DNA from: Planococcus lenghuensis
GTDB lineage: Bacteria; Bacillota; Bacilli; Bacillales_A; Planococcaceae
DNA length: 64,000 nucleotides
Assembly (NCBI RefSeq): GCF_001999905.1
Contig: NZ_CP019640.1
Span: forward strand, 1,530,001 to 1,594,000
Direction: 5' to 3'
Below the pieces are notes generated by a model. The model saw only the letters and a program-made list of their open reading frames with translations, searched no databases and was not told the DNA's origin. A program made the translations under genes and the position numbers. Shown in pieces: positions 30,062 through 40,583 of this stretch (position 1 is its first letter; the number at the start of each line of letters is the position of its first letter).

Positions 30062-30104
30062 GATTCTCCTCCTTCTATCCATATTGTTCCCCCTTAGTCC
30101 ATAG

Positions 30105-30133
30105 TTGTCAAGAGAAGTTGACTGCGCTATGCT
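30105..30133 (+). promoter_or_regulatory. Sigma-A promoter of bkdR
   Basis: TTGTCA, 17-bp spacer, TATGCT, with start near 30140. TTGCA repeats begin three bases later. Confidence 0.6.
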
Positions 30134-30142
30134 GAAACTGAC

Positions 30143-30189
30143 TTGCATGTTATTGCACGCTTAACAGAAGGGTATGAACAAATTTGCAA
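30143..30189 (+). promoter_or_regulatory. TTGCA repeats over the bkdR leader
   Basis: TTGCAT (30143), TTGCAC (30153) and TTGCAA (30184) are spaced 10 and 31 bp apart, on one helical face. The last includes the TTG start codon. They match the array upstream of ptb and may be an autoregulatory operator. Confidence 0.5.
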
Positions 30190-32232
30190 AATGTATTGAT
30201 TGTTGGCGGAGGCAGTGGCGGTTCTGCGATTTTAAACTTGCTTTTGGAATCAGAGTATTTGACGGTGGTCGGCGTAGTGGATAAGGATTTAAAAGCTCCG
30301 GCGCCTCAAACTGCCCGGGAAAATGGAATTCCGGTATTCACCGATTTCACAGAAGCGACCGGTGACCGAGTGGATATTGTCTTTAATGTGACAGGTAACG
30401 GGCGGATGCAGCAGGAGCTCGTGAATTATTTTCCGGCAGAATCGGTCGTGATTCCTGGAAGCATTGCCACCGTGCTGTTCAAATTGCTGACAGAAAAAGA
30501 GCATTTCATCACGAGGCTAAGTGAAGAAGCCCATAAAACGAACACGATTTTTAATTCCATTGAAGAGGGCATGATTGGCATTGATAAAAAGCGCAAGGTT
30601 ACGTTCATCAATAAAAGCGCTGCCAGAATGACAGGCGTATCCGTTGAAGAAGCGCTCGGCAAGCCGATTTATGAGGTCATTCCGGAAAGCAGCCTGCCCC
30701 GGATCATGGAATCCGGCCGGACGGAAATCAACAAAAAGCTGCAGCTTGGAACGGGCATCAGCATTGTGTCATCCCGCTTTCCGATGATCGATGAACAAGG
30801 AGAAGTGTTTGGTGCGGTTTCCGTATTCAAAGACATCACGGAAGTGGTGACGCTTGCTGAAGAAATCACGAACATGAAAGAGATTCAGACAATGCTTGAA
30901 GCGATCATTCAGTCGAGTGATGATGCCATTTCTGTAGTGGATGAAAATGGCAACGGACTGCTGATCAATCCTGCGTATACCCGCATTACAGGTTTGGAGA
31001 CAGAAGCTGTGATCGGCCAGCCGGCGACTGCAGACATCACGGAAGGTGAAAGCATGCACATGAAAGCTCTCCAGCAGCGCAAGCCGATTCGCGGCGTTAA
31101 TATGAAAGTGGGACCGGCCAAACGGGATGTGATCGTCAATGTAGCACCTATCATAGTGGGTGGAAAGCTGAAAGGAAGCGTCGGTGTCATCCATGATATG
31201 ACAGAAATCCGGACGCTGATGAAAGAGCTTGACCGGGCCCGGAGTATCATCCGGACATTGGAGACAAAGTATACATTCAACGACATCATTGGTCAGTCTG
31301 CCGAATTGCAGCTGTCGCTCCAACAGGCGAAACTGGCCGCGGAAACCCAGGCGATCGTGCTGCTCCGCGGAGAGTCAGGCACCGGGAAGGAATTATTTGC
31401 TCATGCGATCCATTCAGCGAGCGGCCGTAAATTCAATAAGTTCATCCGGGTTAATTGCGCCGCGCTTACAGAAGAACTGCTTGAAACCGAGTTGTTCGGT
31501 TTTGAAGAAGGGGCGTTCGACCATAGCCGGAGCAGCCGGAAAGGGATGTTTGAAGAAGCGGACAACGGCAGTATCTTTCTTGATGAAATCGGGGAGTTAT
31601 CACTTGCGGCCCAAGCAAAATTACTGCGCGTTCTGGAAGAACATGAAGTGTTGCGGATCGGGGGCACAAAACCAATACCGATCAATGTCCGCGTGATTGC
31701 TGCAACGAACATAAATATGGAACAGGCCCTGCTGAAAGGGACTTTTCGGGAAGACTTGTATTACCGGCTCAACCGCATGCCGATCCATCTGCCGCCGCTC
31801 AAAAAGCGGAAGCAGGACATTCCCCTCATCGCTGACCGGCTGCTCTTGAAACTCAATCAGGAGTACGGCCGCAATATCCAGGCGCTGTCCGACCGGGCAG
31901 TCCAGCTCCTGAAGATTTATGACTGGCCCGGAAATGTCCGGGAACTTGAGAATGTGCTCAGTCGGGCAATGATTTTCATGCCGGCGCAGGAAAGCATCAT
32001 GACTGACCGGCACATCCCGCTTAACATGATTAAAGGTGATGAAAAGCAGCAGGGGGCAGCGCTTCAATTGCAAACTGCCGTACCGCTGCAGGAGCAGATG
32101 GATACGGTGGAACGGCGAATCCTCGAGCATACGATGGAGGAATGTGAAGGCAATAAAACCCAAGCAGCACGCCAGCTCGATATCTCGCTCCGGTCACTCT
32201 ATTACAAACTTGAAAAACACGGTCTCGCATGA
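30184..32232 (+). CDS. bkdR: BkdR-like regulator of branched-chain keto-acid catabolism (bacterial enhancer-binding protein family)
   Basis: 682 residues. A nucleotide-binding-like N-terminus (NVLIVGGGSGGSAIL) is followed by two PAS domains (about 119-225 and 236-345), an AAA+ domain (about 364-600) and a Fis-type helix-turn-helix (about 649-680, NKTQAARQLDISLRSLYYKL). Walker A RGESGTGKE, Walker B SIFLDEIGE and REDLYYRLN are present. The sigma-54-contact loop, normally GAFTGA, reads GAFDHS at about residue 442, so sigma-54 activation is doubtful. The start is TTG, matching the MQKVLIVG-like start of relatives. It lies directly upstream of the bkd operon, whose B. subtilis version is BkdR/SigL-dependent and induced by Ile and Val. 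Confidence 0.9.
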   Translation: MQNVLIVGGGSGGSAILNLLLESEYLTVVGVVDKDLKAPAPQTARENGIPVFTDFTEATGDRVDIVFNVTGNGRMQQELVNYFPAESVVIPGSIATVLFKLLTEKEHFITRLSEEAHKTNTIFNSIEEGMIGIDKKRKVTFINKSAARMTGVSVEEALGKPIYEVIPESSLPRIMESGRTEINKKLQLGTGISIVSSRFPMIDEQGEVFGAVSVFKDITEVVTLAEEITNMKEIQTMLEAIIQSSDDAISVVDENGNGLLINPAYTRITGLETEAVIGQPATADITEGESMHMKALQQRKPIRGVNMKVGPAKRDVIVNVAPIIVGGKLKGSVGVIHDMTEIRTLMKELDRARSIIRTLETKYTFNDIIGQSAELQLSLQQAKLAAETQAIVLLRGESGTGKELFAHAIHSASGRKFNKFIRVNCAALTEELLETELFGFEEGAFDHSRSSRKGMFEEADNGSIFLDEIGELSLAAQAKLLRVLEEHEVLRIGGTKPIPINVRVIAATNINMEQALLKGTFREDLYYRLNRMPIHLPPLKKRKQDIPLIADRLLLKLNQEYGRNIQALSDRAVQLLKIYDWPGNVRELENVLSRAMIFMPAQESIMTDRHIPLNMIKGDEKQQGAALQLQTAVPLQEQMDTVERRILEHTMEECEGNKTQAARQLDISLRSLYYKLEKHGLA

Positions 32233-32234
32233 CT

Positions 32235-32281
32235 TTGCAAAGAATTGCAAGGTTTTGCAAGTATTTGCACTGCTCTTGCGT
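32235..32281 (+). promoter_or_regulatory. Helically phased TTGCA array upstream of the bkd operon
   Basis: TTGCAA at 32235, 32245 and 32255, TTGCAC at 32265 and TTGCGT at 32276 give spacings of 10, 10, 10 and 11 bp, starting two bases after the bkdR stop. The last two also fit the -24/-12 spacing of sigma-54 promoters (TTGCAC-N5-TTGCG against TGGCAC-N5-TTGCW), with one G missing. ptb begins 84 bases downstream. Confidence 0.65.
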
Positions 32282-32364
32282 TGAAACCTATGAAAACCTT
32301 TACATTAAGACTGTATTTAATTGCAGGATATTGATTAAATTAGAGGTGGTAAAGGGGTGACAGC

Positions 32365-33270
32365 ATGCTGAAATTGGATGATCTTATCAATCCTGAAATG
32401 CCGCAGGCAACCCGCACAGTCTCTATAGCAGCTGCAGCAGACAGTGCAGTGCTTGAGACGGTTAGCTTAGCGGTCGGACAGGGACTGTGCACATTTCTGC
32501 TGATTGATGACAGGCAGGAATTGGCGAGTCTGATGGCGGATGATTTCCCGCATCTGGTAAATCATGCTGATGTGCGTACTTCTCATGCGAGGGATTTTAC
32601 GGACGCGGCAGCACAGGCAGTGAAGGCAGTCCGGGAAAATGATGCTGCGGTGCTCATGAAAGGCCGGATTCCGACAGCCCTGCTGATGAAAGCGGTATTG
32701 CATGCAGAGAAGGGGCTGCGGATCGGCCGGACGCTTTCACACGTGGCAGCTTTTGAAGTGGCCGGATACGACCGGCTGATTTTCATCACGGATGCAGGGA
32801 TGAATCCTGAGCCGGATTTGAACAGCAAAGCGGCCATCATACAAAATGCAGTGGAGATTGCACAAAAGCTGGGGATTGAAAAGCCGGTTGTTGCACCGCT
32901 TGCTGCCGTGGAGATCGTGAATCCGAAAATGCAGGCAACACTGGATGCCGCGGCTCTTGTTGCCATGAATGTCCGGGGACAGATCACCGGCTGCATCGTG
33001 GATGGCCCGCTCGCGCTGGATAATGCGGTTTCAGTTGAAGCGGCCCGCCATAAGGGGCTGACCGGCGAAACAGCCGGACGGGCAGATATCCTTCTCGTCC
33101 CGAATATCGAATCAGGAAACATCCTGTATAAATCGCTTGTCTATTTCGCCAAGGCGAAAGTAGGTGCGGTCATCACAGGCGCAAAGGCGCCGATCGTCCT
33201 GACATCACGCTCCGACAGCGCACAAAGCAAATTATATTCATTGGGTCTTGCACTGCACGCATCCGATTAA
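32365..33270 (+). CDS. ptb: Phosphate butyryltransferase (YqiS)
   Basis: A 301-residue phosphotransacylase. It converts branched-chain or butyryl-CoA to the acyl phosphate, which Buk uses to make ATP. Family segments are AAVLMKGRIPTALLMKAVL, SHVAAFEV and DGPLALDNAVS. AAAGGGGTG lies before ATG 32365. It is the first gene of the bkd operon, after a 132-base gap from bkdR. Confidence 0.94.
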   Translation: MLKLDDLINPEMPQATRTVSIAAAADSAVLETVSLAVGQGLCTFLLIDDRQELASLMADDFPHLVNHADVRTSHARDFTDAAAQAVKAVRENDAAVLMKGRIPTALLMKAVLHAEKGLRIGRTLSHVAAFEVAGYDRLIFITDAGMNPEPDLNSKAAIIQNAVEIAQKLGIEKPVVAPLAAVEIVNPKMQATLDAAALVAMNVRGQITGCIVDGPLALDNAVSVEAARHKGLTGETAGRADILLVPNIESGNILYKSLVYFAKAKVGAVITGAKAPIVLTSRSDSAQSKLYSLGLALHASD

Positions 33271-33297
33271 TCACTGATAATCAGGGAGGAAATGAAA

Positions 33298-34392
33298 ATG
33301 GAAATCTTCAAAAGAATGGAAAGCCAAGACTATGAACAACTGGTGTTTTGCCAGGATAAAACATCCGGCCTGAAAGCGATCATCTGCATCCATGACACAA
33401 CACTCGGTCCGGCGCTTGGCGGAACCCGGATGTGGAATTATGAATCAGAAGAAGAAGCGATTGAAGATGCCATCCGTCTTGGCCGGGGAATGACATACAA
33501 AAATGCGGCAGCCGGTCTGAATCTCGGCGGGGGGAAAACCGTAATCATCGGCGATCCGCTGAAAGATAAGAATGAAGAAATGTTCCGGGCATTCGGCCGG
33601 TTCATTCAAGGACTGAACGGCCGTTATATAACAGCGGAGGATGTCGGCACTACAGTTGCAGATATGGACCTGATCCATGAGGAAACCGATTTCGTGACAG
33701 GCATCTCACCTGCATTCGGTTCTTCGGGTAATCCGTCTCCAGTCACTGCGTATGGCTGCTACCTCGGTATGAAAGCGGCAGCGAAGGAAGCTTTCGGCGA
33801 CGATTCACTGGAAGGTAAAACAATTGCTGTCCAGGGAGTCGGCAATGTGGCTTTCACATTATGCCGCTATCTTCATGAAGAAGGCGCGAAGCTGATCGTG
33901 ACCGATATCAACCAGCAGGCTGTGCAGCGGGCAGTGGATGAGTTCGGTGCAACAGCAGTCGGCATCAATGAGATATATTCCCAGGAAGCGGATATTTTTG
34001 CACCATGTGCCCTCGGGGCGATCATCAATGACGAAACAATCCCGCAGCTGAAAGTGAAAGTCGTGGCCGGATCCGCAAACAACCAGTTGAAGGAAGAGCG
34101 CCACGGGGATATGCTCGAAGAGCGCGGCATCGTTTATGCGCCGGATTTTGTTATCAACGCGGGCGGTGTGATCAACGTTGCGGATGAATTAAATGGCTAT
34201 AACCAGGAACGGGCCATGAAGCGGGTGGAAACGATTTATGACAGCATTTCACGGATTTTCGAAATTGCAAAGCGGGATGGAATTCCAAGCTATCAGGCTG
34301 CAGACCGCATGGCGGAAGAACGGATCGATCGCGTCTGCAGATCGAGAAGCCAATTCCTCCGCAACGAACATAATATCTTGAGCCGCCGCTAA
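33298..34392 (+). CDS. bcd: Leucine (branched-chain amino acid) dehydrogenase
   Basis: A 364-residue NAD-dependent dehydrogenase deaminating Leu, Val and Ile to 2-keto acids. The catalytic segments [10 protein letters not shown] and [20 protein letters not shown] contain the Lys residues of the family. The Rossmann motif is [10 protein letters not shown] start at the second ATG (33298) gives the ribosome-site spacing and the usual 364-residue length. Confidence 0.96.
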
Positions 34393-34415
34393 AGACGGTT
34401 AAGGAGGAGAGCGGA

Positions 34416-35498
34416 ATGCGGGATACTCTCTGCAGGATTCTTGTCATCAATCCAGGGTCCACGTCGACAAAAATCGGTGTTTACGATAATGAAGCGATGA
34501 TCATGGAGAAGACCATTCGCCATGCACCGGAAGAAATCAGTCATTTCTCATCCATCATTGAGCAGTATGATTACCGGAAACAGACGGTTCTTGAAGCGCT
34601 GGATGAAGAAGGCATCAACCTGTCGAAGCTGTCAGCAGTCTGCGGCCGCGGAGGTCTTCTCCGGCCGATCGAAGGCGGTACGTATGCGGTGAATGAAGCG
34701 ATGCTTCAGGATCTCCGGATCGGCTATTCCGGCCAGCACGCGTCGAATCTCGGCGGCATCATTGCCTATGAGATCGCTGAAGCGCTAAATATTCCTTCTT
34801 ATATTGTAGATCCGGTTGTCGTGGATGAACTGGATGATATCGCCCGGGTTTCCGGGTTCCCGATGATTGAGCGGAAATCCATCTTTCATGCACTGAACCA
34901 AAAAGCGGTCGCCCGCCGCTTTGCGGCTTCTGCCGGCAGACGCTACAGCGATCTCCGGCTTATTGTGGCGCATATGGGCGGCGGAATCACAGTCGGCGTG
35001 CATAAGCATGGCCGCGTTACCGATGTCAATAACGGATTACACGGCGATGGTCCGTTCAGTCCGGAACGGGCCGGGACAATACCGGCCGGTGATCTGGTTG
35101 AACTCTGTTTCTCCGGCCAGTACTACCGGCAGGAGATCATGCGGATGGTCGTCGGTAAAGGCGGGCTGGCCGGCTATCTCGGCACGAGTGATGCCGTAGC
35201 GGTCGAAAATAGGATTGCACGGGGAGACGGCGAAGCGGGACTGATATATGAAGCGATGGCGTATCAAGTCGCAAAAGAGATCGGTTCCGCAAGCGCTGCG
35301 CTTGAAGGTGAAGTGGATGCAATTCTGCTGACAGGCGGGCTGGCATACGGCAAATTGTTCACAGAGGCGATCAGCAGAAAAATCAGCTGGATAGCGGACG
35401 TCATTGTCCTGCCCGGTGAAAATGAACTTCAGGCACTTGCTGAAGGTGCAGCCCGGGTACTGAACGGAGAAGAACAGGCAAAGACTTACCCGATGTGA
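34416..35498 (+). CDS. buk: Butyrate kinase
   Basis: A 360-residue acyl kinase of the ASKHA fold. It makes ATP from butyryl, isobutyryl or isovaleryl phosphate formed by Ptb. Signatures are [28 protein letters not shown] and [16 protein letters not shown] lies before the ATG. With Ptb it recovers energy from acyl-CoA made by the Bkd complex or supplies branched acids. Confidence 0.96.
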
Positions 35499-35526
35499 CA
35501 GCGGATACTTAAGGAGGATAAATGAT

Positions 35527-36954
35527 ATGGCACAGGATTATGATCTCGTCATACTCGGCGGTGGAACAGGCGGCTACGTGGCTGCCATCCGAGCAGCCCA
35601 GCTGGGTCTGAAGACGGCAGTCGTGGAGAAAGGCAATCTTGGCGGCACATGTCTCCACAAAGGCTGCATTCCAAGCAAAGCGCTGCTCCGAAGCGCAGAA
35701 GTTTTCAGGACTGCCAAGCATCACGCCGCGGATTTTGGTGTGAAAACCGGCGAAGTGACGCTCGAGTTCGGACGCGTGCAGGAGCGCAAACAGGACGTTG
35801 TTAATCAGCTGTACAAAGGCGTGCAGGCATTGATGAAAAAAGGGAAGATTGATGTGTATGAAGGATTCGGCCGCATTCTGGGGCCTTCCATCTTTTCTCC
35901 AATGCCCGGCACCGTTTCGGTTGAAATGACGAACGGGGAAGAAAATGAAATGCTCATTCCCAAAAATGTGATTATCGCAACAGGTTCCCGGCCCCGCACA
36001 TTGCCGGGGCTCGATATTGATGGCGACCGCATCATGAGTTCCGATGAAGCGCTGTCGCTTGAAGAGCTTCCAAGCTCGATTCTAATCGTTGGAGGCGGTG
36101 TGATCGGCATTGAATGGGCATCGATGCTCCATGATTTCGGCGTCGATGTAACGGTTATTGAATATGCTGACCGCATCCTGCCGACGGAAGATGAAGACAT
36201 TTCAAAAGAAATGCTGAAACTGCTGAAGAAAAAAGGCATCAAGTTCGCCACAGGGGCCAAAGTGATGGGCGATACACTTCAAAAAGATGAAGAAAGTGTT
36301 ACCATCCAGGCAGAACTAGGCGGTAAGAGCCAGACATTCACGGCTGAGAAAATGCTTGTCTCCGTCGGCCGCCAGGCGAATGTTGAAAACATCGGACTTG
36401 AAAACACTGAAATTCAGACGGATAAAGGATTCATCCAAGTGAAAAGGACATTCCAGACAAAAGAGGCCCATATCTACGCGATTGGGGATGTGATCGGCGG
36501 TCTGCAATTGGCACATGTGGCTTCTCATGAAGGCATTGCAGCAGTGGAGCACATCCATACGGAAACTGCCCATTCGATTAATTATGATCACGTCTCCCGC
36601 TGTATTTATTCCAGTCCGGAAGCCGCGAGTGTCGGGATCACCGAAGCGCAGGCGAAAGAGCAGGGATATGATGTGAAAATCGGGAAGTTCCCGTTTACAG
36701 CAATCGGAAAAGCGCTTGTATACGGCGAATCAGACGGCTTCGTAAAAATCATTTCTGATAAAGCGACAAATGACCTGCTCGGTGTCCATATGATCGGTCC
36801 GCATGTGACGGATATGATTTCAGAAGCGGGCCTTGCAATGGTGCTTGATGCTACTCCTTGGGAAGTCGCAGAAACCATTCACCCGCACCCGTCCCTGTCC
36901 GAAGTGATCGGGGAAGCGGCACTTGCCGTTGACGACAAAGCAATCCATATGTAG
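35527..36954 (+). CDS. lpdV: Dihydrolipoyl dehydrogenase, E3 of the branched-chain complex
   Basis: A 475-residue FAD enzyme reoxidising dihydrolipoyl-BkdB. The redox disulfide is in GGTCLHKGCIPSKALL, the FAD motif is ILGGGTGGYVAAIRAAQLG, the NAD motif is VGGGVIGIEWASML, and the C-terminal catalytic His is in HPHPSLSEV. AAGGAGG lies before ATG 35527. A pair of repeats separates it from bkdAA. Confidence 0.95.
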   Translation: MAQDYDLVILGGGTGGYVAAIRAAQLGLKTAVVEKGNLGGTCLHKGCIPSKALLRSAEVFRTAKHHAADFGVKTGEVTLEFGRVQERKQDVVNQLYKGVQALMKKGKIDVYEGFGRILGPSIFSPMPGTVSVEMTNGEENEMLIPKNVIIATGSRPRTLPGLDIDGDRIMSSDEALSLEELPSSILIVGGGVIGIEWASMLHDFGVDVTVIEYADRILPTEDEDISKEMLKLLKKKGIKFATGAKVMGDTLQKDEESVTIQAELGGKSQTFTAEKMLVSVGRQANVENIGLENTEIQTDKGFIQVKRTFQTKEAHIYAIGDVIGGLQLAHVASHEGIAAVEHIHTETAHSINYDHVSRCIYSSPEAASVGITEAQAKEQGYDVKIGKFPFTAIGKALVYGESDGFVKIISDKATNDLLGVHMIGPHVTDMISEAGLAMVLDATPWEVAETIHPHPSLSEVIGEAALAVDDKAIHM

Positions 36955-36958
36955 ACAG

Positions 36959-37044
36959 AAAAGCGAAGGCACCCCCTAGCCCTGACAGACGCTGGAGAAT
37001 CTGCCGAAATGGCGTCTTTCGCCATCGAGACGGATGTGAAGCGA
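36959..37044 (+). repeat. Intergenic repeat copy 1 (hairpin element)
   Basis: An 86-base unit from AAAAGCGAAGGCACCCC to GATGTGAAGCGA, containing the hairpin ATGGCG-TCTTT-CGCCAT. It differs from copy 2 by five transitions and one missing base. Confidence 0.85.
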
Positions 37045-37079
37045 CCCAGAAGGGCTGGGTGACAGAGTCTGGACAAAAG

Positions 37080-37166
37080 AAAAGCGAAGGCACCCCGCTA
37101 GCCCTGACAGGCGCTGGAGGATCTGCTGAAATGGCGTCTTTCGCCATCGAGGCGGATATGAAGCGA
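37080..37166 (+). repeat. Intergenic repeat copy 2 (hairpin element)
   Basis: An 87-base unit 121 bp after copy 1, in the same orientation, with the same internal hairpin. The short spacer between copies has its own CCCAG / CTGGG hairpin. Both lie inside the bkd operon, so they will appear in its mRNA. Confidence 0.85.
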
Positions 37167-37220
37167 TTTTTACTTAAAGAGACACAATGCCTTTAAGATT
37201 TTTATAAAGGAGGAAGAGCA

Positions 37221-38225
37221 ATGGCGAATCGTCATGAAGAATTAGGTTTATCGAACGATGATGTGCTGAAAATGTATGAGACGATGCTGATGGCCCGCCG
37301 GGTGGATGAACGGATGTGGCTGCTGAATCGCGCAGGGAAAATCCCATTCGTTATTTCCTGTCAGGGACAGGAAGCGACACAGGTCGGAGCGGCATATGCG
37401 CTCGATAACACAAAAGATTATATTGCACCGTATTACCGCGATCTCGGCGTTGTCCTGCATTTCGGCATGACGCCGCAGGACTTGATGCTGTCGGCATTTG
37501 CGAAAGCGGAAGATCCCAACTCAGGCGGCCGGCAGATGCCCGGGCATTTCGGCCAGAAGAAAAACCGGATTCTGACCGGATCATCGCCTGTTACGACCCA
37601 GCTGCCGCATGCCGTCGGTGTTGCGCTCGCCGGGAAAATGACCGGGGAAGATTTCATCACGTTCACCACGCTTGGCGAAGGATCTTCCAATCAGGGGGAT
37701 TTTCATGAAGGGCTGAACTTCGCGGGTGTCCATAAACTGCCGGTCGTCACGGTAGTCGAGAATAATAAATATGCAATTTCTGTACCGCTTGACCGGCAGG
37801 TGGCTGCCAAACAGGTTTCGGACCGCGCGGCCGGGTACGGCATGCCGGGTGAGACAGTGGACGGCAACGATCCGCTTGAAGTCTACCGTTCTGTAAAAGC
37901 TGCGGCGGACCGCGCGCGCCGCGGGGAAGGACCGAGCCTTATTGAAGCGGTATCTTCCCGGATGACTGCCCACTCGTCAGACGATGACCACCGGGCTTAC
38001 CGGTCAGCGGATGAGCTGGAAGCACAAAAATCATCCGATCCGGTCCTGACATTTGCAGCGTACTTGACGGAAGCCGGTGTACTGGACGACGATCTGGCAA
38101 AAGAAATCAACGACCGGGTTATGAAAACAGTCAATGAAGCCACGGATTATGCAGAAAATGCACCGTATGCAGATCCGGAATCCGCGCTTGATTACGTATA
38201 TGCTGAAGAAGGAGGGGACGAATAA
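37221..38225 (+). CDS. bkdAA: Branched-chain 2-oxoacid dehydrogenase E1 alpha subunit
   Basis: A 334-residue thiamine-diphosphate-binding subunit that decarboxylates branched-chain 2-keto acids. Visible are ISCQGQEATQVGAAYAL, GRQMPGHFG, LGEGSSNQGDFHEGLNFA (the GDG-like TPP motif region) and SRMTAHSSDDD. AAAGGAGG lies before the ATG. Its stop overlaps the bkdAB start as TAATG. Confidence 0.95.
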   Translation: MANRHEELGLSNDDVLKMYETMLMARRVDERMWLLNRAGKIPFVISCQGQEATQVGAAYALDNTKDYIAPYYRDLGVVLHFGMTPQDLMLSAFAKAEDPNSGGRQMPGHFGQKKNRILTGSSPVTTQLPHAVGVALAGKMTGEDFITFTTLGEGSSNQGDFHEGLNFAGVHKLPVVTVVENNKYAISVPLDRQVAAKQVSDRAAGYGMPGETVDGNDPLEVYRSVKAAADRARRGEGPSLIEAVSSRMTAHSSDDDHRAYRSADELEAQKSSDPVLTFAAYLTEAGVLDDDLAKEINDRVMKTVNEATDYAENAPYADPESALDYVYAEEGGDE

Positions 38226-39208
38226 TGCCGGTAATGTCTTATATCAATGCGATTACGCTCGCAATGAAAGAAGAAATGGAGCGGGATGACCGGGTATTCG
38301 TTCTCGGTGAAGATGTCGGAAAAAAAGGCGGCGTTTTCAAAGCGACAGCAGGGCTGTATGACCAATTCGGTGAATACCGGGCACTCGATACGCCCCTTGC
38401 AGAATCGGCAATTGCCGGTGTCGGGATAGGCGCCGCCATGTATGGCATGCGGCCAATCGCTGAATTCCAATTTGCCGATTTCATTATGCCGGCGGTCAAT
38501 CAGATCATCTCGGAAGCATCGCGCATCCGTTACCGCTCCAATAACGACTGGTCATGTCCGATCGTGTTCCGGGCTCCCTTCGGCGGCGGTGTGCACGGCG
38601 CGCTGTATCATTCCCAGTCGGTGGAAGCGGTTTTCGCAAACCAGCCGGGCCTTAAAATTGTCATCCCGTCAACGCCGTATGACGCAAAAGGACTCCTGAA
38701 AGCCGCGATCCGCGATCCGGATCCGGTCATGTTCTTTGAGCATAAACGGGCGTACCGGCTCATTAAAGGCGAAGTGCCGGAAGACGATTATACAATCGAA
38801 ATCGGCAAAGCCGACGTGAAGCGGGAAGGCGAAGATATCACAGTCATTACATATGGTCTGGCTGTTCATTTCGCACTTCAGGCTGCAGAACGTCTCGCAG
38901 AGGATGGTATTTCCGTTCATGTGCTGGATCTGCGCACGATTTATCCGCTCGATAAAGCAGGCATCATTGAGGCAGCAAAGAAAACCGGGAAAGTTCTTCT
39001 TGTGACTGAGGACAACAAGGAAGGGAGCATCATCGGGGAAGTCGCGGCAATCATTGCCGAAAATTGCCTGTTTGACCTGGATGCGCCGATTCAGCGCCTT
39101 GCCGGTCCGGATGTGCCGGCGATGCCATACGCTCCGACGATGGAGAAATTCTTCATGATCAATCCGGATAAAGTCGAAAAAGCGATGCGTGATCTGGCGG
39201 AATTCTGA
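38225..39208 (+). CDS. bkdAB: Branched-chain 2-oxoacid dehydrogenase E1 beta subunit
   Basis: A 327-residue partner of BkdAA in the alpha2beta2 E1. Conserved stretches are FVLGEDVGKKGGVFKATAGL, DTPLAESAIAGVGIGAA, EFQFADFIMPA and APFGGGVHGALYHSQS. A GGAGGGG lies at the end of bkdAA, and translation is coupled by the one-base overlap. Confidence 0.95.
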   Translation: MPVMSYINAITLAMKEEMERDDRVFVLGEDVGKKGGVFKATAGLYDQFGEYRALDTPLAESAIAGVGIGAAMYGMRPIAEFQFADFIMPAVNQIISEASRIRYRSNNDWSCPIVFRAPFGGGVHGALYHSQSVEAVFANQPGLKIVIPSTPYDAKGLLKAAIRDPDPVMFFEHKRAYRLIKGEVPEDDYTIEIGKADVKREGEDITVITYGLAVHFALQAAERLAEDGISVHVLDLRTIYPLDKAGIIEAAKKTGKVLLVTEDNKEGSIIGEVAAIIAENCLFDLDAPIQRLAGPDVPAMPYAPTMEKFFMINPDKVEKAMRDLAEF

Positions 39209-39236
39209 TCAGCATAAAGAACAGGAGGCGATTCCT

Positions 39237-40583
39237 TTGGCGATAGAAAAAATTACGATGCCCCAGCTCGGGGAGAGTGTGACAGAAGGAACCATTGAAA
39301 AATGGCTGGTTGCACCGGGCGATCACGTCAATAAGTACGATCCGCTGGCGGAAGTCAATACGGACAAAGTAACGGCTGAAGTTCCGTCATCGTTTACCGG
39401 TGTGATCAAGGAACTGAAAGCGGAAGAAGGCGATACGCTTGCTGTCGGTGATCTTGTCTGTACCATCGAGACAGAAGGCGGTGACGGGGCAGAAGAAGTG
39501 ACCGACGCAAAACCGGCAGCCGGTGAAGAAGCGAACGAGCAGCCTGTCGCTGGCGGTCAGCAGGAAGTGGAATTGAGCGGCACGAAAGGCTCATCCAAAC
39601 CCGCGGCACCCACTGGAGCAAAAGGCCGTTATTCTCCTGCCGTACTGCGACTTTCGCAAGAAAATGACATTGACCTGTCACAGGTTGAAGGGTCAGGACG
39701 CGATGGCCGGATCACCCGTAAAGATCTGATGAAACTGATTGAAAGCGGCAATATTCCAAAGCCGGGCGAACCGTCTGCAAAGGCATCAGCGTCCCAGCCG
39801 GCGCCGCAAGCGCAGGAATCCGCTGCCCCGGCCGCCCCGTCTCAGCAGCCAGCCGCCTCACCGGCGATCGAGTCCGCACCAGGTGATATTGAAGTTCCGG
39901 TGACCGGCGTCCGCAAGGCGATTGCAGCGAACATGGTGAAAAGCAAGCACGAAGCACCGCATGCCTGGACGATGACGGAAGTGGATGTGACGAATCTCGT
40001 TCAGTACCGGGATTCCCTGAAAACGGAGTTCAAGCAGCGGGAAGGGTTTAACCTTACGTATTTCGCATTTTTCGTCAAAGCGGTATCCCAGGCACTGAAG
40101 GAATTCCCGATGATGAATTCCATGTGGGCCGGCGATAAAATCATTCAGAAAAAAGATATCAATATCTCAATCGCTGTGGCGACTGAAGAAGCGCTGTACG
40201 TGCCAGTCATCAAAAATGCTGATGAGAAATCGATTAAAGGCATTGCCCGGGAAATCAACGACCTGGCAGCGAAAGTCCGGGCAGGCAAACTGAAAGCCGA
40301 CGACATGAAAGGCGGCACATTCACCGTCAACAATACAGGCTCATTCGGTTCTGTTCAGTCGATGGGCATCATCAATCATCCGCAGGCGGCCATTCTGCAG
40401 GTGGAATCGATTGTGAAGCGGCCGGTCATCCTGAATGGCGGTATGATCGCTCCTCGCGATATGGTGAATCTGTGCCTGTCGCTTGATCACCGGGTGCTCG
40501 ATGGTCTGGTGTGCGGCCGTTTTCTGGCACGGGTCAAAGAAATTCTTGAAAACATTTCGAAAGAGAACACATCTGTGTACTAA
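39237..40583 (+). CDS. bkdB: Branched-chain 2-oxoacid dehydrogenase E2 (lipoyl acyltransferase)
   Basis: 448 residues. A lipoyl domain carries the lipoyl Lys at about residue 44 (NTDKVTAEV), followed by an acidic/Ala-Pro linker and the E1/E3-binding domain (SPAVLRLSQENDIDLSQVEG). A second Ala/Pro linker leads to the acyltransferase core ending in the catalytic DHRVLDG. It transfers the branched acyl group to CoA and forms the complex core. The TTG start at 39237 follows AGGAGG at six bases. It is the last gene of the operon. Confidence 0.94.
   Translation: MAIEKITMPQLGESVTEGTIEKWLVAPGDHVNKYDPLAEVNTDKVTAEVPSSFTGVIKELKAEEGDTLAVGDLVCTIETEGGDGAEEVTDAKPAAGEEANEQPVAGGQQEVELSGTKGSSKPAAPTGAKGRYSPAVLRLSQENDIDLSQVEGSGRDGRITRKDLMKLIESGNIPKPGEPSAKASASQPAPQAQESAAPAAPSQQPAASPAIESAPGDIEVPVTGVRKAIAANMVKSKHEAPHAWTMTEVDVTNLVQYRDSLKTEFKQREGFNLTYFAFFVKAVSQALKEFPMMNSMWAGDKIIQKKDINISIAVATEEALYVPVIKNADEKSIKGIAREINDLAAKVRAGKLKADDMKGGTFTVNNTGSFGSVQSMGIINHPQAAILQVESIVKRPVILNGGMIAPRDMVNLCLSLDHRVLDGLVCGRFLARVKEILENISKENTSVY

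Follow-up and report, generated by a model that had tools for sequence, protein, structure and literature searches.

The window analysed here is a 64,000-nucleotide stretch of the Planococcus lenghuensis genome (NZ_CP019640.1, positions 1,530,001 to 1,594,000) and contains bkdR followed on the same strand by the ptb-bkd operon (Table 1). Between the bkdR stop codon (32230-32232) and the ptb start (32365), TTGC begins at window positions 32235, 32245, 32255, 32265 and 32276, that is, in steps of 10, 10, 10 and 11 bp. On the bkdR side it begins at 30143 and 30153 (a step of 10) and then, 31 bp on, at 30184. These positions and spacings all match those in an earlier note on this DNA, which had described a phased TTGC array at ptb and the same motif at bkdR. 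None of 20,000 dinucleotide-preserving shuffles of 32233-32364 reproduced four equally spaced TTGCA, and likewise none gave five close TTGC. The pattern TTGCA-N5-TTGCA-N5-TTGCA, searched without mismatch, has its sole match in the 4.15-Mb genome at the array before ptb. By itself the hexamer TTGCAA shows no enrichment in the window (18 occurrences versus 31 expected); the unusual feature is the arrangement only, not the frequency of the hexamer.

Table 1. Features of the bkdR-ptb region in window coordinates.
Feature	Position	Strand	Basis or remark
bkdR sigma-A promoter, TTGTCA-N17-TATGCT	30105..30133	+	
Putative autoregulatory dyad TGCATGTTATTGCA, ~+4 to +18 of bkdR	30144..30157	+	Dyad position conserved in relatives
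bkdR: Rossmann-like N-terminus, two PAS domains, AAA+ sigma-54-activator-type domain, Fis-type HTH	30184..32232	+	
TTGCAA at bkdR start	30184..30189	+	TTG start codon + Gln codon; judged no operator
Degenerate L1 loop codons, GAFDHS	31510..31527	+	GAFTGA in sigma-54-active relatives
Fis-type helix-turn-helix, BkdR residues 640-678, candidate reader of dyads	32101..32217	+	PF02954
Putative operator dyad 1, TGCAAAGAATTGCA (array units 1+2)	32236..32249	+	TGCA cores 100% in 30/30 g1+g8 loci, spacer variable; A....T spacer as in bkdR upstream dyad
Putative operator dyad 2, TGCAAGTATTTGCA (array units 3+4)	32256..32269	+	Conservation, dyad register
Fifth 'unit', TTGCGT	32276..32281	+	Judged outside operator; absent from relatives
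Degenerate cre-like (catabolite-response-element-like) site, TGAAAACCTTTACA	32291..32304	+	Alignment; relatives ATAAA(A/G)CGCTT(T/A)CA
Very weak -35 (TGTATT) of inferred sigma-A ptb promoter	32312..32317	+	17 bp before -10; 2/6 consensus matches
Inferred extended -10 of ptb, TGATTAAAT, at ancestral sigma-54 -12 position	32332..32340	+	Alignment with Paenisporosarcina TTGGCACACTTTATGCTTAAAT
Operon presumed to be controlled: ptb, leucine-dehydrogenase-like gene, buk, lipoamide dehydrogenase, two E1 subunits, E2	32365..40583	+	ORFs; E1 and E2 from ORF translations

A search of 250 family genomes yielded bkdR orthologs in 137, and a class-wide sample of 145 genera yielded them in 91; the window protein shares 50-82% full-length identity with most of these orthologs, and ptb is the neighbouring gene. 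Genera are referred to by code where needed: g1 is the window's genus (two genomes), g8 Planococcus/Planomicrobium, g12 Paenisporosarcina and g6 Viridibacillus. The earlier note had staked its array on conservation of motif and spacing in relatives, and both are conserved: four TGCA cores at 10-10-10 directly follow the bkdR stop in 30/30 loci (both g1 genomes and 28 Planococcus loci). Across these loci the cores are 100% conserved and spacer 1 only 68%. Spacers 1 and 3 have the pattern A....T with a variable interior, spacer 2 is mostly NGGTTT, and the single dyad upstream of bkdR repeats the first pattern (first base A in 65/68, last base T in 68/68). Since spacers 1 and 3 and the bkdR upstream dyad share one spacer pattern, the dyad unit is TGCAA-N4-TTGCA. 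Units 1+2 form one such 14-bp dyad and units 3+4 a second, in tandem with it, and this is the better description of the array. Their centres are 20 bp apart and therefore lie on the same helix face. The steps are 10-9-10 in 9/9 Paenisporosarcina loci (two with one mismatch) and likewise in Viridibacillus, so that the inter-dyad gap is 9 in these outgroup genera versus 10 in the window. The fifth unit (TTGCG, 32276) is missing in the sister species and in all 28 Planococcus loci and is private to the window. A uniform five-unit array bound by an oligomer was rejected on account of this unconserved unit and the gap of 9 or 10; what survives of the phased array as first described is its four exact 10-bp cores, organised as two dyads.

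Equal steps are typical of tandem repeats, and the array might be imagined as a functionless product of chance or slippage; given the shuffles, and cores that are invariant while the spacers differ within and between species, we regard this as having almost no chance of being right. It is also very improbable that the repeats act in RNA, as a hairpin or terminator ending the bkdR transcript. A strong hairpin is possible in some relatives (L009, z -5.4; L037, z -4.1) and spacers 1 and 3 show a complementarity excess (4.10 versus 3.71 of 6, p 0.004, relatedness not removed), but palindromic cores alone yield such folds, the fold in the window is ordinary (z -1.2) and no terminator-like site was called at the array. 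Moreover, a hairpin needs neither exact 10-bp steps nor a fixed distance to the promoter, and the same dyad also occurs in the bkdR leader.

That the ptb and bkdR promoters have a motif in common, as the earlier note proposed, holds for the dyad, which is present at both and conserved in relatives. A single dyad upstream of bkdR is found in nearly all family loci outside genus g17, versus about 0.3 expected by chance in total. It lies 39-41 nt after the -35 (TTGTCA) in nearly all dyad-bearing loci of g1, g2, g3, g4, g5, g8 and g12, and 45-46 nt after it in g6. In g2-g5 this dyad is retained and the array before ptb is absent; most Bacillaceae loci have fewer or imperfect dyads. The position of the leader dyad at about +4 of the inferred bkdR start suggests autorepression. 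The third site that had been proposed, the TTGCAA at 30184, was rejected as an operator: its letters are the initiation codon (TTG) and Gln2 (CAA), and where bkdR begins with ATG the hexamer becomes ATGCAA. The promoter of the divergent DUF2627 gene (TTGACA-N17-AACAAT, window 30083-30111, minus strand) overlaps the bkdR -35 via a palindromic TTGTCAA; the two promoters may compete for polymerase, and the arrangement is apparently conserved in Planococcus.

BkdR itself matches the AAA+ sigma-54 activator domain (PF00158, 7e-65) and the Fis-type HTH (PF02954, 6e-14), and is most likely the protein that reads the dyads. A regulator other than BkdR recognising TTGCA at both promoters is improbable, since almost every genus examined has the dyad beside bkdR, at either or both of the promoters, and in sigma-54-type relatives it occupies the place in which BkdR should have its upstream activating sequence. 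BkdR remains the best candidate for the single regulator of operon and bkdR that had been suggested; what had been missed is the sigma-54 ancestry of the system and the loss of its sigma-54 features in this genome. Residues 1-109 (window 30184-30510) form a Rossmann-like domain, with PF01408 barely above its cut-off, and BkdR may sense a dinucleotide or CoA-type ligand besides whatever its PAS domains detect; the Rossmann-like N-terminus and the two PAS domains together make a plausible sensor.

BkdR works as a sigma-54 activator in most Bacilli, where these dyads precede a promoter of the form TTGGCAC-N5-TTGCA. A canonical -24/-12 promoter occupies the gap after bkdR in the class sample and in the named Bacillaceae, dyads adjoin such promoters across Bacilli, and in several sigma-54-type relatives the same dyads lie 57-58 bp upstream of the -24 GG. 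In B. thuringiensis the ptb promoter needs sigma-54, and deletion of bkdR lowers its activity (PMC4428206). The window departs from this state in gene, loop and promoter. The sigma-54 gene, rpoN, was not found by PF04552 and TIGR02395 in the window's 100%-complete genome, where controls were positive, and by the same two models, with working controls, it is absent from the sister genome of the genus. The GAFTGA motif of the L1 loop, essential for contact with sigma-54 (PMC3162934), is degenerate in the window BkdR, and the loop has a pLDDT below 50 in the predicted structure; Walker A, Walker B, the arginine fingers and sensor II are all intact. Planococcus loops read GALPG, GAIPG and similar, echoing a preference for proline in defective loops reportedly noted by Francke and colleagues. 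The only other clear enhancer-binding-protein-like regulator of the genome (L002, G000:C1:1209996-1211261; PAS, AAA+ and Fis HTH) is also without GAFTGA, as expected because the genome is without sigma-54, and GAFTGA is likewise absent from its relatives in the sister species and two Planococcus genomes.

At ptb, the best sigma-54 matrix score is 8.9, at an unconserved site, compared with 13.7-27 for canonical named loci. This best match falls on units 4+5 (TTTGCACTGCTCTTGCG), whose 11-bp step and TTGC fit the -24/-12 geometry and could make BkdR an ordinary sigma-54 activator. We consider that scarcely credible: the complete genome has no rpoN, GAFTGA is lost, and the site is unconserved in the sister species and off the ancestral promoter position. 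The match was accordingly rejected as chance mimicry.

In 164 of 166 loci the strict motif (G[AS]F[TS]GA) is present or absent together with a sigma-54 promoter after bkdR, although these loci are related by descent and are not independent. The two exceptions both come from Paenisporosarcina genomes that yielded no rpoN. The GAFTGA state changes at least four times on a tree from which the loop columns were not removed, and a phylogenetic pairs test of motif against promoter (three same, none opposite, one tie) has too few pairs for significance and is consistent but underpowered. Genomic rpoN has been lost more often than the loop, with no close tracking between them: at 11 of 28 Planococcus loci the genome keeps rpoN and the BkdR loop is already lost. 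That the disappearance of rpoN from a genome drives the loss of GAFTGA is thus unsupported as a tight rule. In one Paenisporosarcina locus (L115, G090) GAFTGA and the -24/-12 promoter are intact and no rpoN was found in the 360-contig assembly; either the gene was lost recently or the contig carrying it is missing. In another family of the class, L139 (G370) has independently lost GAFTGA, the arginine fingers and the -24/-12 promoter, with rpoN kept.

Alignment of the ptb promoters suggests how the conversion may have occurred. Paenisporosarcina has a -24/-12 site, TTGGCAC-N5-ATGC, followed directly by TTAAAT, so that the TGC of the -12 element doubles as the TGN of an extended -10. A hexamer resembling TTGATA/TTGTTA precedes the TTAAAT by 18 bp. 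Planococcus reads TG(T/C/G)TTTAAT at the homologous place; its -35 is poor and the -24 element is absent. The sequence at ptb in the window has the conserved extended -10 of a putative sigma-A promoter at the right place, with a weak -35, and would start transcription at about 32347. Unit 4 and the -10 are 68 apart in 28/28 Planococcus loci, across a spacer of 66% mean identity, and the distance from the bkdR stop to unit 1 varies there from 2 to 8 nt. For the two genomes of the window's genus the former distance takes the values 69 and 70, and for Paenisporosarcina 71. Between array and promoter most relatives carry a cre-like sequence, which is degenerate in the window.

Among GAFTGA-less BkdRs, presence of the array goes with intact arginine fingers. 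Array-bearing g1, g8 and g12 have GAFTGA-less BkdRs with Walker A, Walker B, both arginine fingers and sensor II; loss of the array in g2, g3, g5 and a class outlier is accompanied by loss of at least one of the two arginine fingers. In g4 the fingers are present and the array is absent. Counted over GAFTGA-less BkdRs, 34 have both the array and intact fingers, 26 neither, four the fingers only and none the array only, the independent events behind these counts being few. This suggests that an ATP-driven assembly still serves the two-dyad site.

Taken together, we favour, at a probability of about 0.68 and on the strength of sequence comparison, the reading that the array is an ancestral BkdR operator at ptb, kept after sigma-54 was lost, that the promoter was rebuilt for sigma-A, and that BkdR activates ptb and represses itself. 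The dyads would have been the upstream activating sequence of a sigma-54-dependent operon, each 14-bp dyad taking one Fis-type HTH dimer of BkdR. As the lineage lost sigma-54 and the sigma-54-contacting GAFTGA loop of BkdR, the -24/-12 promoter would have been remodelled where it stood into a sigma-A promoter that has an extended -10 and a poor -35. Dimers at about -83 and -103 of the ptb start, on one face of the helix, would then activate sigma-A polymerase and switch on branched-chain amino-acid breakdown, and a dimer on the single dyad just downstream of the bkdR start would limit expression of BkdR's own gene.

It is unlikely that BkdR instead binds the array as a repressor or loose tuner of ptb, with no activator site there. 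GAFTGA-less relatives such as TyrR can repress, and g2-g5 retain only the autoregulatory dyad, placed where a repressor would sit. The ptb dyads, by comparison, precede the inferred start by about 83 and 103 bp, which is too far for blocking; the very poor -35 is typical of activator-dependent promoters, the array-to--10 spacing is fixed in Planococcus, and the array is retained only alongside intact arginine fingers. A more far-reaching form of the activator reading is possible, and we advance it tentatively, as somewhat less probable than not. BkdR would be an ATP-hydrolysing enhancer-binding protein that swapped its partner from sigma-54 to sigma-A and kept its enhancer, while the bkd promoter was rebuilt base over base, from -12 to extended -10. 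Paenisporosarcina would preserve a dual sigma-54/sigma-A stage (TTGATA-N18-TTAAAT overlapping TTGGCAC-N5-ATGC), and BkdR of g2, g3 and g5 would have decayed further, losing arginine fingers and array, to a one-dyad autoregulator.

The nearest known system is control of bkd by BkdR and sigma-L in B. subtilis and B. thuringiensis, with an orthologous activator next to the ptb-bkd operon, the same neighbouring gene and, in many Bacilli, the same type of dyad downstream of bkdR. Bacillus, however, has sigma-54, GAFTGA/GAFSGA and TTGGCAC-N5-TTGC(A/T), whereas all three are lacking here and the promoter has an extended -10. Because GAFTGA, the sigma-54 gene and a -24/-12 promoter were each looked for and not found, we do not class the window BkdR as a sigma-54-dependent activator; its most likely place is among the enhancer-binding proteins without GAFTGA that have switched to sigma-70. 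TyrR, DhaR, VpsR and, in R. capsulatus, NtrC and HupR are such GAFTGA-less proteins, thought or shown to regulate housekeeping promoters (PMC3162934, PMC10274813), and they share with BkdR the AAA+ enhancer-binding-protein architecture and a degraded sigma-54-contacting loop. What sets bkd apart from them is that a single orthologous operon still displays the sigma-54-type ancestor state, the intermediates and the converted promoter, and that the array-bearing BkdR branch keeps its ATPase arginine fingers. Caulobacter NtrC, which has a loop without GAFTGA and is predicted to bind and hydrolyse ATP at sigma-70 promoters (PMC10274813), resembles BkdR in both the loop and the predicted use of ATP. 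It is, however, a nitrogen-control response regulator of Alphaproteobacteria with many sites, whereas BkdR is of PAS type and is seen at two adjacent promoters.

GAFTGA-less activators are themselves already known; what seems new here is the graded series at one orthologous operon with the operator constant. The literature searched held no report of such a graded bkd series or of sigma switching, although one may exist elsewhere, and no BkdR binding site, which the 1999 work on B. subtilis bkdR could describe. The analysis supplies a specific putative definition of that site, TGCAA-N4-TTGCA. The joint exit of a promoter and its activator from sigma-54 is usually inferred from isolated end products, for example TyrR. 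The bkd operon offers apparent ancestral, dual and converted states in related species with a constant operator, and so makes the order of events (promoter, loop, sigma factor) and the role of ATP hydrolysis at a sigma-A promoter directly testable.
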